This document shows positions 16,849 to 24,142 of a DNA stretch of 37,508 bases, piece after piece. The notes under the pieces were generated by a model. The model worked only from the letters and a program-made list of their open reading frames with translations. It ran no database searches and had not been told where the DNA came from. The translations under genes and the position numbers were made by a program. Source of the DNA: Acetobacteraceae bacterium (GTDB lineage: Bacteria > Pseudomonadota > Alphaproteobacteria > Acetobacterales > Acetobacteraceae); assembly GCA_027483125.1 (NCBI GenBank), contig JAIXVH010000385.1:1-37508 (forward strand). The letters run 5' to 3'. The first letter of the stretch is position 1; each line of letters begins with the position of its first letter.

Positions 16849-18780
16849 TCAGGCGGCGGGTGCGGCTTCTTCGGCAGGCTCGGTCGCGGGCGCTGGGCGC
16901 GCGCGGCGGGCCTGGACCAACATGAAGGCGGGCGTGGCATCACCGAAGCCGCGCACGGAGGGGCCGAGATCATCGCGACGATAGCGGTCGCGGCGGTCGT
17001 CATCCCGCACGGCGCGGGGCCCATCATCGCGCGGCGGGCGCGCATCATCCCGGCGCGGACGATCCTCGCGCGCGGCGCGCGGGGCGTCGTCCCGCGGCGG
17101 GCGCGAAGAATCATCCCGCGGCGGGCGCGAAGAATCATCGCGCGGCGGGCGCGGAGCATCATCCCGGCGCGGGCGATCATCACGACGCGGCCGGTCATCG
17201 GCACGCGCCTCATCGCGGCGCGGACGATCCTCGCCATCGCGGCGGGGGCGGTCATCCCGGCGCGGGCGTTCCTCACCTTCGCGCCGCGGGCGCTCTTCAC
17301 GCCCAGGCCGGCGGTCACCGCCGCGGCCACGCGCATCGCGGCCACGCTCAGGCGCACCACCCCGCCCACGGCCGCGCTTGCGCAGCGCCGCATCGGCCAG
17401 GTCCTGCGCCGTCACCTCATCCAGGCCCGGTATGGCGATGCGCGGGATCTCGCGCCCGGTCAGTTTCTCGATGCCGGTCACGAAGCGCACATCATCGGCG
17501 GTCGCGATGGAGAAGGCCTTGCCCTCGCGCCCCGCGCGGCCGGTGCGGCCGATGCGGTGCACATAGTCTTCCGAGTGGATCGGCACGTCGAAATTGAACA
17601 CGTGCGAAAGCCCGCCGATATCGATCCCGCGCGCCGCCACATCGCTGCACACCAGCAGTTGCAGCTCACCCGCCTTGAAGGCGTTCAGCGTCGCGAAGCG
17701 CACCGACTGGTCCAGATCGCCATGCAGCGCGCCCACCTTGAAGCCGTGCTTGCGCAGCGACTTGAACAGGATGTCCACTTCAACCTTGCGGTTGCAGAAG
17801 ATCAGCGCGTTGTGAATCTCCTCCGAGCGGATCAGCCGGCGCAGCGCCTCGCGCTTGTCGTGCGGCTGCACATAGACCAGGCCCGCGGTGATGGTGGTCG
17901 CGACCGATGCAGGGGCGGAGACCGAAATCTCCTTCGGGTTCGACAGGAAGGCATCGGCCAGGCGGCGGATTTCCGGCGCCATGGTCGCGCTGAAGAACAG
18001 CGTCTGCCGCATGCCCGGCAACATGGAGACGATGCGCTCCACATCCGGGATGAAGCCCATATCCAGCATGCGATCGGCTTCGTCGATCACCAGCAGCTTG
18101 CAATCGGCCAATAGGATGCGGCCGCGATCGAACAAATCCAGCAGGCGGCCGGGGGTGGCGATCAGCACATCCACCCCGGCTTCGAGGGCGGCCTTCTGCT
18201 CATCCATGCTCTCGCCGCCGATCAGCAGCGCGTGGTTCAGCTGAAGGTATTTGCCGTATTTCTCGAAGTTTTCGGCGACTTGCAGCGCGAGTTCCCGTGT
18301 CGGCTCCAGGATCAGGCTGCGCGGCATGCGCGCCCGTGCCCGCGAGCCCGACAGGATATCCAGCATCGGCAACACGAAGCTGGCGGTCTTGCCGGTCCCG
18401 GTCTGTGCGCAGCCCAGCACGTCGCGGTTCATCAGCACATAGGGGATGGCTTGTTCCTGGATCGGCGTCGGGTGCCGATATCCTGCCTCGGTCACAGCGC
18501 GGAGCAGTTCTTCCGACAGGCCGAGATCGGCGAAGGTCGTGCGCGTGTCTTCTTCCGGCGCCTCGTCTTCGTCCTCGTTGTCATTGTCCTGCTCGGCGTC
18601 GTCGGCAGGCTCATCTGCCGCCATGACAACGGCCGGCTCTTCCACCGGCACGGGCGGTGTTTCGGGCATCCCGGGGGCCGCGGCCTCGTGTTCCGGGAGG
18701 GGTTGCGCACTGGCCTCGGCCGTGCGCGGTGTGGTGTCGTTCAAGATGCACTCATCTCTGTGGTGGCGGTGGTGGACCAT
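16849..18780 (-). CDS. DEAD-box ATP-dependent RNA helicase (RhlE-like)
   Basis: The helicase motifs are complete: Q motif (F-A-D-L-G-L to P-T-P-I-Q), motif I A-Q-T-G-T-G-K-T at about 125-132, D-E-A-D at 233-236, S-A-T at 264-266 and H-R-I-G-R-T-G-R at 408-415. An acidic segment (D-N-D-N-E-D-E-D-E) precedes the core. The roughly 150-residue tail is almost wholly Arg/Asp/Pro/Gly (R-G-G then P-R-R-D-D repeats), a likely disordered RNA-binding region. The start is uncertain. I chose the ATG at 18780, with GAGG 7 bp upstream, giving 643 residues; a TTG at 18744 is an alternative, and the longer ORF to 18918 seems less likely. Such helicases act in ribosome assembly and RNA decay. Confidence 0.9.
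   Translation of the reverse strand: MVHHRHHRDECILNDTTPRTAEASAQPLPEHEAAAPGMPETPPVPVEEPAVVMAADEPADDAEQDNDNEDEDEAPEEDTRTTFADLGLSEELLRAVTEAGYRHPTPIQEQAIPYVLMNRDVLGCAQTGTGKTASFVLPMLDILSGSRARARMPRSLILEPTRELALQVAENFEKYGKYLQLNHALLIGGESMDEQKAALEAGVDVLIATPGRLLDLFDRGRILLADCKLLVIDEADRMLDMGFIPDVERIVSMLPGMRQTLFFSATMAPEIRRLADAFLSNPKEISVSAPASVATTITAGLVYVQPHDKREALRRLIRSEEIHNALIFCNRKVEVDILFKSLRKHGFKVGALHGDLDQSVRFATLNAFKAGELQLLVCSDVAARGIDIGGLSHVFNFDVPIHSEDYVHRIGRTGRAGREGKAFSIATADDVRFVTGIEKLTGREIPRIAIPGLDEVTAQDLADAALRKRGRGRGGAPERGRDARGRGGDRRPGREERPRREGEERPRRDDRPRRDGEDRPRRDEARADDRPRRDDRPRRDDAPRPPRDDSSRPPRDDSSRPPRDDAPRAAREDRPRRDDARPPRDDGPRAVRDDDRRDRYRRDDLGPSVRGFGDATPAFMLVQARRARPAPATEPAEEAAPAA
17091..17162. repeat. 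24-bp tandem repeats within the helicase tail
   Basis: Three adjacent 24-bp units (17091-17114, 17115-17138, 17139-17162) encode 8-residue P-P-R-D-D-S-S-R-type repeats. The first two units are identical and the third has four substitutions. They sit inside a longer stretch, about 16980-17360, of less regular Arg/Asp repeats. All units keep the reading frame, so copy-number change would alter tail length without frameshift. Confidence 0.8.
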
Positions 18781-18951
18781 GCCGATGCCTCGCGGCCCGA
18801 CCCGGGCGCCTGCATGGCCAATGGGCCGGGCGGAGCGGATGGGGGGCGCGGCAGGGGCAGGCTTTCCCGCCCCGCGACGCGCGTGCATATGCGCCGCAAT
18901 CCCGCGCGCCGCAAGCATTTCCTGGCGCCCCCAACCCGGAAAAGCCGTACC

Positions 18952-20059: not shown

Positions 20060-21005
20060 TGTTGTTGGCGCGGATCACGGCGCCGAGCTCGCGCACCTCG
20101 CGTTCCACCAGCGCGTCCATCTCGGCCAGCGTCATCGGTGCCACGGTTGCGCCGCCTTCGCGGGCGCGGCGGCGCACGGCGTCATCCTGCGCCAGTTCGC
20201 GCAGGGCGGCGTTGTAGCGCTCGCGGATCGGCAATGGTGTGGCTGCGGGGACGAAGAAGGCGAACCAGGCATCGATGGTGAAGCCTGGCAGTCCGGCCTC
20301 GGCCGTGGTCGGCACATCGGGCAGCGCCTCGGCGCGGTTGGCGCTGGCCATGGCGAGCGCGCGCAACCGCCCGCCCTGCACCAGGCCGATCGCGCTGGAT
20401 GGCGTTGTGATGAACATCTCGACGCGCCCGCCGGCGACATCCTGCAGCGCGGGTGCGGCCCCGCGATAGGGGACATGCACCATCTCGGCGCCGATCGCGC
20501 GGCTGAACAGCGCGCCCGCGATGTGCTGGATGCTGCCCGCGCCGGAGGATGCGTAGTTCAGCGTGTTGCGCCGCGCGAGTGTAATGAATTCCGCCAGCGT
20601 GGCCGGCATGTTGGGTGCAACCAGCACCACATGCGGCGCCATCGTGCCCATGCCGAGGCTCGCGAAGTCGCGCAGCGCATCGAAGCCCGCATTGGCCATC
20701 ATCGCCGGGTTGCCAGCGTGGTAGCCTGAATAATTCAGCAGGATGGTCTGCCCGTCGGGGGCTGCGCGCATCGCCGCCTGAATGGCGATGTTGCCATTGG
20801 CACCAGGCCGGTTTTCCACCACCATCGACTGGCCCAGGATGCGCGCCAGGCCGTCGCTGAACAGGCGGGCTGCGAAGTCGCTGCCACCGCCGGGCGGGTT
20901 GGGCACCAGCATGGTAATGGGGCGTGTGGGCACCCAGGATTGCGCGAGCGCGGGTGTTGCAAGTGCAGCGCCAATCAGCGCGCGGCGAGAAACGGCGTGA
21001 TCCAT
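20046..21005 (-). CDS. Bug-type (TTT family) periplasmic substrate-binding protein
   Basis: This third Bug/TctC receptor has 319 residues. The signal peptide is M-D-H-A-V-S-R-R-A-L to P-A-L-A-Q at about 22. I-T-M-L-V-P-N-P-P-G-G-G-S-D is the ligand loop, and V-V-E-N-R-P-G-A-N-G, H-V-P-Y-R-G-A-A and V-P-T-T-A-E-A-G follow. GGAGGAAAC precedes the ATG. Its first 31 bp lie inside the 3' end of the dehalogenase-like hydrolase gene, so the two are one transcript and translation is probably coupled. The ligand is therefore likely the hydrolase substrate or product, a small carboxylate. No tctAB genes are nearby. Confidence 0.9.
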   Translation of the reverse strand: MDHAVSRRALIGAALATPALAQSWVPTRPITMLVPNPPGGGSDFAARLFSDGLARILGQSMVVENRPGANGNIAIQAAMRAAPDGQTILLNYSGYHAGNPAMMANAGFDALRDFASLGMGTMAPHVVLVAPNMPATLAEFITLARRNTLNYASSGAGSIQHIAGALFSRAIGAEMVHVPYRGAAPALQDVAGGRVEMFITTPSSAIGLVQGGRLRALAMASANRAEALPDVPTTAEAGLPGFTIDAWFAFFVPAATPLPIRERYNAALRELAQDDAVRRRAREGGATVAPMTLAEMDALVEREVRELGAVIRANNIRLE

Positions 21006-21862
21006 GAGAGTGTTTCCTCCGGTGCTTCTTCGGCCAGATAGTGGCCACTATTGACCGCGCCGCCGGAGAGGGGGCCTGCGGCATACCGGCGCCAGACCTC
21101 CAGCGGGCGATACCATTTGCCGATCGCGCCCTTCGCACCCCACAGCACCAGCAGGGGGCATTGTACGCGCGCACCCGCATCGCGGCTTTCGCGGTCATGC
21201 ACCAGGTCGATGGTGGCCGCTGCGCGGTAGTCCTCGCAGATGGCGGTGACGGTGCCCGGTTCGCGCAATGCGGCCAGGTAGTCGGCGCGGGCTTCGGGGT
21301 GGAAGAAGGAACGATCCTTCGGCTCGCGGCTGGTGTGGATGTCGAACCAGGTTTCGATGTCCTGGTTGATCAGCGTCTCGGGCTTAGGGTGCGGCTGGGC
21401 CAGCCAGAACCAGTGATAATAGCCCATGGCGAAGGCGGCATCGGCATTCTCGAAATGGTGCAGCGTTGGCACGATGTCGAGCAGGGCGGCGCGTGTGACG
21501 GCGTCGGGTTGGTCGAGCAGCAGTCGATGCGCGACGCGCGCGCCGCGGTCATGCGCGAGCACGGCGTACTGCGCGTGGCCGAGGGAGAGCATCAGGCCAT
21601 GCACATCCTTGGCCATTTCGCGCTTGGCATAGGGCGCGTGGTCGGGGCTGGCGGGTGGTTTGGCGGAGAAGCCATAGCCGCGGATGTCGGCGCAGATGAT
21701 GGTGTGCGTGCGCGCCAGAACCGGCGCCAGCTTGTGCCACATGAAGTGCGTCTGCGGGTTGCCGTGCAGCAGCAGCAAGGGCGGGCCATTGCCGCCGATG
21801 CGGCAGCGCACCGCCATGCCGGCGACTTCGCGCCGTTCCTCCCGAAAGCCTTCGAATTCCAT
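20975..21862 (-). CDS. Alpha/beta hydrolase, fluoroacetate dehalogenase-like
   Basis: This protein has 295 residues from the ATG at 21862; a GTG seven codons upstream is an alternative. The pattern matches haloacetate/fluoroacetate dehalogenases (RPA1163 numbering in brackets): nucleophile D105 [110] in A-H-D-R-G-A-R-V, carboxylate-binding R106 [111] and R109 [114], acid D129 [134] in L-L-D-I-V-P-T, halide-pocket H150 [155], W151 [156] and Y212 [219] in C-E-D-Y-R-A, and base H274 [280] in S-G-H-Y-L-A-E-E. H-G-N-P-Q-T-H at 33-39 forms the oxyanion loop, with N where RPA1163 has F. It would hydrolyse an alpha-halo acid to the hydroxy acid; fluoride versus chloride preference is not certain from sequence. 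RPA1163 residues are from memory. Confidence 0.85.
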   Translation of the reverse strand: MEFEGFREERREVAGMAVRCRIGGNGPPLLLLHGNPQTHFMWHKLAPVLARTHTIICADIRGYGFSAKPPASPDHAPYAKREMAKDVHGLMLSLGHAQYAVLAHDRGARVAHRLLLDQPDAVTRAALLDIVPTLHHFENADAAFAMGYYHWFWLAQPHPKPETLINQDIETWFDIHTSREPKDRSFFHPEARADYLAALREPGTVTAICEDYRAAATIDLVHDRESRDAGARVQCPLLVLWGAKGAIGKWYRPLEVWRRYAAGPLSGGAVNSGHYLAEEAPEETLSWITPFLAAR

Positions 21863-21892
21863 CCGCGCAGCGTGGCACCGCACCGATTGACG

Positions 21893-21919
21893 CGCAACGC
21901 GCCCAGTCGCAGCGTTGCG
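21893..21919. promoter_or_regulatory. 8-bp inverted repeat in divergent promoter
   Basis: CGCAACGC (21893-21900) and GCGTTGCG (21912-21919) form a perfect inverted repeat with an 11-nt spacer. It lies in the 80-bp gap between the divergent dehalogenase-like gene (start 21862) and the CMD-like gene (start 21943). It is a plausible operator for co-regulating both sides; no regulator gene is adjacent. Confidence 0.4.
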
Positions 21920-21942
21920 GTGAGGACCAAGAGGAGGAACCG

Positions 21943-22392
21943 ATGGCCAAAGGCGACGAGACCCTGTTCAACAAGGGCCTGCCCATCCGCCGCGCTGTGC
22001 TCGGCAAGGAATATGTGGATGGCAGCATGGCGAAGGCGGACGACTTCATGATGGCCTTCCAGCGCGCCACCACCACCATTGCGTGGGGTTGGGCCTGGGG
22101 CGACCCGACGCTGGATCGCAAGACGCGCAGCCTGCTGAACCTGGCGATGCTGACCGCCCTGGGGAAGACACCGGAAATCAAGCTGCACGTGAAGGGCGCG
22201 CTGACCAATGGCGTGACGGTCGACGAGATCAAGGCAACGCTGCTGCACGCCACGGCCTATTGCGGGATTCCCGCGGGGTTGGATGCCTTCAAGGCGGCGC
22301 ATGAGGTGCTGGTGGCGGAAGGTGCGGTCAGCGGGCAGCCCTTGAAGCCCGCCAAGAAGAAGGCCGCGCCCAAGAAGGCCGCCAAGAAGTGA
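21943..22392 (+). CDS. Carboxymuconolactone decarboxylase family protein
   Basis: This 149-residue CMD/PcaC-like protein carries N-L-A-M-L-T-A-L-G-K near residues 67-76, H-V-K-G-A-L-T-N-G-V-T, and H-A-T-A-Y-C-G-I-P-A-G at about 107-117. Only one cysteine is present in that region, so it is not an AhpD-type CxxC peroxidase. An unusual Lys/Ala-rich tail (about 15 residues, K-K-K-A-A-P-K-K) ends the protein. GAGGAGG precedes the ATG. It may process a lactone or keto acid in a catabolic pathway. It is coupled to the dehydrogenase gene downstream. Confidence 0.85.
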   Translation: MAKGDETLFNKGLPIRRAVLGKEYVDGSMAKADDFMMAFQRATTTIAWGWAWGDPTLDRKTRSLLNLAMLTALGKTPEIKLHVKGALTNGVTVDEIKATLLHATAYCGIPAGLDAFKAAHEVLVAEGAVSGQPLKPAKKKAAPKKAAKK

Positions 22393-22403
22393 AGCGCATC
22401 GGC

Positions 22404-23297
22404 ATGAAGCATATATGCTTCATCGGCATCGGCAATATGGGTTGGCCGATGGCGGCCAATCTGGTGGCGAAGGGCTTCGATGTGGCGGTGGCCGACACGG
22501 ACGCCGCGCGGGCTGCGCGTTTTGCCGGCGAAACAGGCGCGCGCGCGGCTGCCGATGCGGCCGATGCCGCGCGCGGTGCCGATGCCGTCGTGACCGTCCT
22601 GCCGACCAGCAAGCAGGTGGCGGTGGTGGCGGCTGCGGCCAAGCCCGCCATGCGCGCGGGCGCGCTGTTCATCGACATGACCAGCGGCCAGCCGGGTGCC
22701 ACGCGTGCCATCGCGGCCGATCTGGCGGCGGTGGGCGTGACCATGCTGGACTGTCCCGTCTCCGGTGGCGTGTCGCGCGCCAAGACTGGCGAGCTTGCCA
22801 TCATGGCCGGCGGTGACGCCGCTGCCCTGGACGCCGCCGAGCCGGTGCTGCGCGCCATGGGCACATCCATCCATCGCTGCGGCGGCATCGGCGCCGGGCA
22901 GGCGATGAAGGCGCTGAACAACCTGGTCAGCGCCGGCGGTTTCCTGATCGGGATCGAGGCGCTGCTGATCGGCCAGAAATTCGGCCTGGATCCGGCGCTG
23001 ATGGTGGATGTGCTAAACGCGTCCACCGGCATGAACAATTCCACGCAGAAGAAGTTCAAGCAGTTCGTGCTGAGCCGGCGCTTCGATTCCGGCTTCTCGC
23101 TGGAGTTGATGGTGAAGGACCTGTCCATCGCGCTCGAAGTCGGGCGCGACAATGCGGTGCCCACGCCCTTCGCGGCGCTGTGCCGAGAAATGTGGGCGGC
23201 GGCCGCTGTGTCGCTGGAACCGGGTGAGGACCATACCGGCGTCGCGAAGCTGCCTGAACGTCTGGCGGGAACTGCCCTTGGCGGCGGCAACGCATGA
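22404..23297 (+). CDS. 3-hydroxyisobutyrate dehydrogenase family oxidoreductase
   Basis: This beta-hydroxyacid dehydrogenase has 297 residues from the ATG at 22404; a GTG at 22389 overlapping the previous stop would add five residues. The Rossmann motif G-I-G-N-M-G is at 8-13, the substrate-binding D-C-P-V-S-G-G at 116-122, and catalytic K169 with N173 in A-M-K-A-L-N-N. This family oxidises short hydroxy acids such as 3-hydroxyisobutyrate, tartronate semialdehyde precursors or glycerate relatives. It overlaps the next gene by four bases (ATGA). The substrate is not predictable from sequence. Confidence 0.88.
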   Translation: MKHICFIGIGNMGWPMAANLVAKGFDVAVADTDAARAARFAGETGARAAADAADAARGADAVVTVLPTSKQVAVVAAAAKPAMRAGALFIDMTSGQPGATRAIAADLAAVGVTMLDCPVSGGVSRAKTGELAIMAGGDAAALDAAEPVLRAMGTSIHRCGGIGAGQAMKALNNLVSAGGFLIGIEALLIGQKFGLDPALMVDVLNASTGMNNSTQKKFKQFVLSRRFDSGFSLELMVKDLSIALEVGRDNAVPTPFAALCREMWAAAAVSLEPGEDHTGVAKLPERLAGTALGGGNA

Positions 23298-24142
23298 CCC
23301 CGTCCGATGATCGCAGCGCGCAGCGCGGAGGGCTGAATCGGCCGGAACTGCTCTGGGAAGCCTACGCCATCCGCTACGCGCGGCACGAGCGCAGCGCGCG
23401 CGAATGCCACGCCTATGCCGTGCCCGATCCGCATGAAGCCATGCCGCTGGACTTCTATATCTGGCTTCTGCGCGCCCCGGATGGCCGCGAAATCCTGGTC
23501 GATACCGGCTATGATCCCGAGACCGCCGAACGCCGCGGTCGCCCGCTGGCGCGCCGTGTGGATGCCGCACTCGCCGCCATCGGCAGCGATGCCGCGCGCA
23601 TCCAGGACGTGGTGATCAGCCACCTGCATTGGGACCATGTCGGCAGCCTGGCGCAGCTTCCCGCCGCCCGCTTCCACATCCAGGAACGCGAACTGCATTT
23701 CGCCACCGGCCGGCATATGTGCAGCCGTGCCATCCGCATGCCCTTCGAATGCGAGCATGTGGTGGCGATGATCCGCGCCCTCTACGCCGACCGTGTCGCG
23801 GTCCATACCGGCGAGGCGGAGATCGCGCCCGGCGTCACCCTGCACCGCGTCGGCGGCCATTCGGACGGGTTGCAGGTGGTGCGCGTGATGACCGCGCGTG
23901 GCCCGGTCGTCATCGCCTCCGACGCCATGCATTTCTATGCGAATGCGGAACGCGAGAACCCCTTCCCCATCATATTCGACCTGGGCGAGATGGTGGCCGG
24001 CTGGCGCATCACCCGCGCGCTGGCCGGTGGCGTCGAAAGCGCCGTCATCCCCGGCCATGACCCCATCGTGCTGAAGCGTTTCCCCAACCTGCCAGGCCAT
24101 GAAGGTGAGGTCGCCATGCTGCACCTGCCGCCGCTATTCTGA
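23294..24142 (+). CDS. MBL-fold hydrolase, N-acyl homoserine lactonase-like
   Basis: This 282-residue cytosolic MBL protein has no signal peptide. The metal motif is H110-L-H-W-D-H115, with H189 in V-G-G-H-S-D-G, D210 in A-S-D-A-M-H and H255 in I-P-G-H-D-P. The H-L-H-W-D-H form and the I-W-L-L-R opening resemble AiiA/AttM lactonases. In this catabolic operon a small lactone, as for BlcC-type gamma-butyrolactonases, fits better than quorum quenching. It overlaps the dehydrogenase gene by four bases. Confidence 0.83.
   Translation: MTPSDDRSAQRGGLNRPELLWEAYAIRYARHERSARECHAYAVPDPHEAMPLDFYIWLLRAPDGREILVDTGYDPETAERRGRPLARRVDAALAAIGSDAARIQDVVISHLHWDHVGSLAQLPAARFHIQERELHFATGRHMCSRAIRMPFECEHVVAMIRALYADRVAVHTGEAEIAPGVTLHRVGGHSDGLQVVRVMTARGPVVIASDAMHFYANAERENPFPIIFDLGEMVAGWRITRALAGGVESAVIPGHDPIVLKRFPNLPGHEGEVAMLHLPPLF

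Follow-up and report, generated by a model that had tools for sequence, protein, structure and literature searches.

Natural enzymes known to break the C-F bond are few, and the search for new ones depends on pocket residues. For the fluoroacetate dehalogenase RPA1163, His155, Trp156 and Tyr219 are described as stabilising the leaving fluoride, while in the FA1 enzyme the pocket Trp is reported to be required for fluoroacetate and not for chloroacetate; according to the same source, Alr0039 (NOS0089) and Daro3835 defluorinate both fluoroacetate and difluoroacetate (PMC11022551). Kinetics of the D4B fluoroacetate dehalogenase DeHa4 have been published (PMC12184663), and DeHa4 is presumably the same protein as that of entry 9c9f. 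In selections of the H-1 enzyme on FP (taken here as 2-fluoropropionate), Trp180 is stated to have been almost always retained and is called critical, while in RPA1163 smaller residues at the lid Trp site are said to have favoured bulky substrates (PMC12955510). Judging by an offset of five residues and by the mention of RPA1163 in that paper (PMC12955510), Trp180 of H-1 occupies the position of Trp185 in RPA1163. As for genetic context, the fluoroacetate cluster of Caballeronia S22 is described as carrying its dehalogenase together with CrcB, a fluoroacetyl-CoA thioesterase and an aconitate methyltransferase (PMC11812338).

Here, we analysed a stretch of 37,508 nucleotides (hereafter the window) which encodes a hydrolase of this type. 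The features considered are collected in Table 1. The open reading frame of the hydrolase runs from an ATG to the stop codon, and a longer version starting with GTG at 21883 is also possible. The protein matched Abhydrolase_1 of Pfam with 87.9 bits, and in NCBIfam it had no match above any cut-off. The closest solved chains found by phmmer were Alr0039 (3qyj, E = 8.7e-86), 9c9f (3.7e-84), 4nvr (1e-76) and RPA1163 (3r3u, 6.9e-76); by this measure the similarity to fluoroacetate dehalogenases is far above chance. The literature searched on haloacetate dehalogenases in Roseomonas and on fluoroacetate dehalogenases in Acetobacteraceae returned nothing on the activity of this clade.

Table 1. Features of the hydrolase locus, in window coordinates.
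Feature	Coordinates	Strand	Basis
Alpha/beta hydrolase, fluoroacetate-dehalogenase type, 295 aa	20975..21862	-	ORF (ATG 21862, stop 20975), Pfam, phmmer, AlphaFold model, structure comparison
Bug/TctC solute-binding protein, 319 aa	20046..21005	-	PF03401 (183.6 bits; cut-off 27)
31-base overlap of hydrolase 3' end and Bug 5' end	20975..21005	-	ORFs; overlapping start candidates in 14/15 loci with downstream Bug
Spacer of 80 bases between hydrolase and divergent CMD gene	21863..21942		ORFs
PcaC-like carboxymuconolactone-decarboxylase-family protein (CMD)	21943..22392	+	PF02627
3-hydroxyisobutyrate-dehydrogenase-like protein (HIBADH)	22389..23297	+	Pfam, NCBIfam, neighbour comparison
Metallo-beta-lactamase-fold, lactonase-like hydrolase (MBL)	23294..24142	+	NCBIfam lactonase matches below cut-offs
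Asp105 codon, predicted nucleophile (RPA1163 Asp110)	21548..21550	-	Alignment
His150-Trp151 codons, predicted halide pocket (RPA1163 His155-Trp156)	21410..21415	-	Alignment; invariant in 67/67 and 49/49
Glu180 codon at the RPA1163 Trp185 lid position	21323..21325	-	Alignment, residue tables
Tyr212 codon (RPA1163 Tyr219)	21227..21229	-	Alignment
His274 codon, predicted general base (RPA1163 His280)	21041..21043	-	Alignment

An earlier note on this DNA had named eight residues as those of the RPA1163 active site, and all eight agree with their counterparts in our alignment, in which Asp110, Arg111, Arg114, Asp134, His155, Trp156, Tyr219 and His280 of RPA1163 correspond to D105, R106, R109, D129, H150, W151, Y212 and H274 of the hydrolase. 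The Asp-His-Asp catalytic triad (D105, H274, D129) is present, as are the two Arg residues for the substrate carboxylate (R106, R109) and the His-Trp-Tyr halide pocket (H150, W151, Y212), the last read from the sequence alignment and not from side-chain geometry. The note had further stated that this pocket separates defluorinating members from chloride-only ones. Such a use of the pocket could not be upheld, since 4b9a, a 'probable epoxide hydrolase' of P. aeruginosa, keeps His, Trp and Tyr, yet has Thr as its triad acid, and since the lid Trp185 is replaced by Glu in the hydrolase. The pocket is thus a good sign of a candidate defluorinase rather than a proof. As 4b9a shows, having a halide pocket does not establish that halides are turned over, a point that counts against the dehalogenase reading. 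Going by their titles, some entries of the 4b9a series contain MFA as a ligand, taken here to be monofluoroacetate; in 4nvr the His155 position is occupied by Trp.

The AlphaFold model of the hydrolase, built with 49 sequences and numbered one lower than the protein itself, reached a mean pLDDT of 93.4 and a pTM of 0.92, with lower values at the lid (79 for block 171-180 and 82 for 181-190) and around the pocket His (84 for 141-150). Pfam, the model and the structure comparison all give an alpha/beta hydrolase fold with a cap domain. In VIA-align the model fitted the structures of fluoroacetate dehalogenases with deviations of 1.0-1.5 A and Z scores of 46.8 for 9c9f (1.0 A over 292), 46.5 for Alr0039, 45.7 for Daro3835, 44.8 for FA1 and 44.3 for RPA1163 (3r3u_D, 1.4 A). 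By its predicted fold and its active site, we judge the hydrolase to be a genuine dehalogenase-type enzyme from a separate subfamily.

Matches to the hydrolase at E<=1e-60 occurred in 110/200 genomes of the family and at E<=1e-100 in 82/200. A search of the class at E<=1e-100 gave 5/289 genomes, one of which is the window's own. Close relatives are concentrated in one family (82/200, against 4/288 others from the class, a sample in which at least three of the non-matching genomes belong to the same family). For residue comparison, peptides from the window protein served as seeds of a scan in which 80 out of 128 relatives were kept; of the 80 regions fetched, 67 hold a hydrolase copy at >=55% identity and 13 a more distant one. 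The nearest named relatives are L115, 98% identical and, going by its title, from a Lake Pavin MAG, and then Rhodovarius copies at 82% and 76%. Among the 67 close copies, His155, Trp156, Tyr219, Asp134, both Arg and His280 (RPA1163 numbering) were found in every one and Asp110 in 66, so that all eight residues are complete in 66/67; of the 13 distant copies, four keep His155. The eight residues are also invariant in 49/49 sequences of the A1 set, which is drawn from the window protein and the named sequences, SAR116 included. The one exception among the 67 close copies, L082, has Asn where the others have the nucleophilic Asp110, and its remaining listed pocket residues are intact.

In a tree of 61 rows, from which the long-branch rows L114, L199 and L105 were removed and to which 4b9a was added, a branch of 99/98 separates 40 window-set rows from 21 others, among them RPA1163, Alr0039, Daro3835, 9c9f, 4nvr and 4b9a; the split recurs in all 200 bootstrap trees checked. 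The value of 99/98 relies on this second tree and is weaker with the three long rows included, when four rows are shifted: in that first tree 37 rows stood with the window at 93/94, L114, whose pocket differs, lay inside the window side, and L088, L096, L101 and L185 lay on the other. The sequences of H-1 (DehH1) and FA1 stood outside both the trees and the residue tables. The hydrolase does not group with the characterised members, a grouping that does not define the fluoroacetate dehalogenase type, which is diverse. Separately, a plasmid gene (L197:5869-6762) bears the annotation 'haloacetate dehalogenase H-1', which may be misleading: its product carries Trp in place of His155 (YFWWFF) and falls among the 4nvr-like copies in the tree.

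The lid, two positions of which were missing from the earlier note's list, departs from that of RPA1163: Trp185 of RPA1163 is replaced by Glu180, and Lys181 by His176. Glu180 differs from the lid residue in all six reference chains and His176 from that in five, 4nvr sharing the His. In the 67 close copies the Trp185 position holds E in 43, H in 7, G in 6, S in 6, D in 4, V in 1 and W in none, and position 180 of the A1 set holds E in 43, G in 3, D in 2 and H in 1; a lid of HTSRE or near-HTSRE type appears in most A1 rows displayed, SAR116 rows among them. Trp at position 185 was seen in 3/13 of the more distant copies (<55% identity). According to their entry titles, recent RPA1163 structures with both lid positions mutated bound larger substrates. 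By analogy with the H-1 enzyme, loss of the lid Trp could lead to poor defluorination, and the replacement of Trp185 and Lys181 by Glu180 and His176 suggests a preferred substrate other than fluoroacetate, in which case defluorination, if it occurs, would be a side reaction or one activity among others. These lid residues speak for a dehalogenase of chloro- or bromo-acids, or an enzyme for non-halogenated alpha-substituted acids or lactones in the setting of CMD, HIBADH and MBL, that would not cleave C-F bonds to any meaningful extent. Against such an enzyme stand the Trp and Tyr tied to C-F cleavage, invariant in both sets examined (67 and 49), and the lid Trp itself, which is frequent in fluoroacetate dehalogenases and not defining: D4B 9c9f has Arg there, so Trp is not essential to that function name. 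We regard an enzyme without C-F cleavage as rather unlikely, although it is the likeliest of the alternatives.

The genes on the other side of the hydrolase bear on the same question. CMD, HIBADH and MBL, names that apply at family level, follow one another with successive 4-base overlaps and diverge from the hydrolase. A CMD orthologue (E<=1e-50) was found in 54 family genomes, and in 27 of the 86 linkage genomes it lies no more than 3 kb from the hydrolase (the linkage set being the 82 at E<=1e-100 plus four with fragments), and CMD and HIBADH both stand upstream in 24/67 named loci with enough sequence. Clustering of the neighbours in 80 named loci recovered the CMD, HIBADH, MBL and Bug genes along with antisense noise. 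By family, the neighbours (CMD, HIBADH, MBL and sometimes Bug) look like genes of small-carboxylate or lactone catabolism, and a lactone and hydroxyacid setting would also suit an enzyme that leaves the C-F bond alone. The setting points to ordinary small-acid catabolism, not to recognised fluoride-defence genes. Elsewhere in the window (16849-18918, minus strand) lies a gene for a DEAD-box helicase with a long repetitive Arg/Asp-rich C-terminal tail.

Downstream, the earlier note had paired the hydrolase with the Bug receptor, the receptor capturing a small carboxylate and the enzyme dehalogenating it. In its full form this would be a dedicated fluoroacetate-degrading unit, with Bug as the capture protein for a small haloacid and the hydrolase as the enzyme that removes the fluorine. 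The complete pocket agrees with this proposal, and so does the arrangement of the genes: the note's statement that the Bug gene begins inside the 3' end of the hydrolase is correct, its ATG at 21005 lying 30 bases ahead of the point where the hydrolase stop codon ends, and the overlap makes co-translation of the two likely. A same-strand Bug gene directly downstream was found in 15/77 named loci with enough sequence (14/76 when counted over another span), against 32 other Bug matches over about 722 kb of flanks, and in 14 of these 15 an ATG or GTG that could serve as the Bug start overlaps the hydrolase stop; the Bug of L121, one of the 15, is only 40% identical to that of the window. Bug orthologues (E<=1e-95) occurred in 23 family genomes; 11 of these have the gene within 500 bases of the hydrolase and 12 do not, and contig ends may conceal some neighbours, CMD and Bug alike. 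A subset of genomes (11/86) thus conserves this particular orthologous pair; these genomes are related and do not represent independent events. We also considered pure chance as the source of the adjacency and rejected it, given that a specific orthologue adjoins the hydrolase in 11/23 genomes, though these genomes are related. In one region (G177:C2:2908-4740) the CMD and Bug orthologues occur close together with no hydrolase orthologue among the matches listed, as if the hydrolase were a dispensable part.

The link to uptake fared less well than the overlap and the pair. The window's genome (G000, a 4.0 Mb assembly) gives at least 150 Bug matches, the number scored out of 206 candidates, with gene fragments at contig ends perhaps among them, and because of this number adjacency to a Bug gene alone carries little weight. 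The same genome has three TctA matches, two of them partial and none on contig C331, so that no TctA partner stands beside this Bug gene, as is the case for many Bug receptors; large Bug expansions with few membrane components have been described (PMC5994714). The orthologous Bug is away from the hydrolase in 12 of its 23 genomes, and CMD is near the hydrolase in more genomes (27/86) than Bug is (11/86). The hydrolase and Bug may share a substrate.

Fluoride-related functions argue against a dedicated unit as well. No CrcB, CLC or fluoride riboswitch was detected in the window's genome, whose assembly is 93% complete, and this result also favours an enzyme without C-F cleavage. CrcB is present in 172/200 family genomes and, in the same-genus genomes listed, in G072 and G141 and not in G188, the nearest to the window's. 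Its absence is weak evidence because it is missing from that nearest genome too, and assembly gaps could explain it. In a comparison by eye, no CrcB lay close to a hydrolase match among the matches listed for the family genomes. Searched with Pfam, nine window proteins yielded none of the families described for the Caballeronia S22 cluster, namely CrcB, fluoroacetyl-CoA thioesterase and aconitate methyltransferase (PMC11812338), and a spread over more than half of the family genomes sampled is unlike that of a specialist for a rare toxin. For all these reasons the dedicated unit is not supported, and we regard a pair that captures and defluorinates as possible but distinctly improbable. Plasmid homologues were also considered as a source of known fluoroacetate operons and rejected, since no fluoride exporter was found in the five regions with listed genes (of seven; two had no annotated gene). 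Two loci on plasmids, L200:3603-5906 and L201:3567-5873, from Pseudomonas psychrotolerans and Caballeronia NK8, carry a gene for a MerR-type regulator that diverges from a tandem pair of alpha/beta hydrolase genes; the product of the second gene in the pair is most like 4b9a.

That the hydrolase is no dehalogenase at all, being an epoxide-hydrolase-like or catalytically idle relative such as the shared fold of 4b9a and 4nvr (both named other than dehalogenase) and the altered triad acid behind the intact pocket of 4b9a might suggest, is highly improbable in view of the full Asp-His-Asp triad and both Arg residues in 66/67 close relatives.

On balance, we favour by a modest degree of belief a haloacid dehalogenase that works with an Asp nucleophile and belongs to the fluoroacetate-dehalogenase type, within which it has a subfamily of its own, with a preferred substrate that may not be fluoroacetate and with a setting in small-acid catabolism. 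From the residues, the fold and the pocket invariance observed in close relatives, we infer its catalysis, halogen and substrate as follows. Arg106 and Arg109 would bind the carboxylate group of a small acid substituted at its alpha carbon, from which Asp105 displaces the leaving group; His150, Trp151 and Tyr212 would take up the departing halide, and His274, oriented by Asp129, would activate a water molecule to split the ester. The product would be a 2-hydroxy acid, glycolate if the substrate were a haloacetate. HIBADH-family enzymes have 3-hydroxy acids as substrates, and none of the neighbouring genes is an obvious consumer of a 2-hydroxy acid, which counts against the dehalogenase that we prefer. 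The enzyme would probably act on small alpha-haloacids and hydrolyse them in vitro.

This clade, present in dozens of genomes including marine SAR116, has its halide pocket fixed and its lid rewritten. Its members could reveal whether defluorination can be predicted from the pocket by itself or is determined by the lid, and might yield enzymes with a different substrate range. A bolder proposal, which we put forward as speculative and on present evidence unlikely, is that Acetobacteraceae and marine SAR116 share a subfamily of native dehalogenases, marked by the invariant His-Trp-Tyr pocket and the HTSRE-like lid, that act on a naturally occurring alpha-haloacid or on a compound resembling one, working in some of the lineages through a small conserved catabolic cluster and with C-F cleavage built in.

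Compared with known systems, the hydrolase is closest in structure to the D4B fluoroacetate dehalogenase of Delftia acidovorans (9c9f), with which it shares the fold at 47% identity, the triad, both Arg residues, the His/Trp/Tyr pocket and the lack of a lid Trp; the two differ in the lid residue itself, Arg in 9c9f and Glu here, and 9c9f falls outside the window clade. Alr0039 of Nostoc, the best sequence match in the PDB, has the full active site in common with the hydrolase, whereas it keeps the lid Trp and has Cys at the Lys181 position. RPA1163 of Rhodopseudomonas palustris shares the eight residues and the fold and differs in both lid positions, the hydrolase also being two residues shorter right after the lid. 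The P. aeruginosa protein (4b9a and its mutants) has the same fold and pocket, with Thr where the hydrolase has Asp129 and with Met at the lid. Finally, the Caballeronia S22 cluster, as described, resembles the window in containing a fluoroacetate dehalogenase homologue, and differs from it in the fluoride exporter and fluoroacetate-resistance genes that flank its enzyme, none of which were seen around the window hydrolase (PMC11812338).
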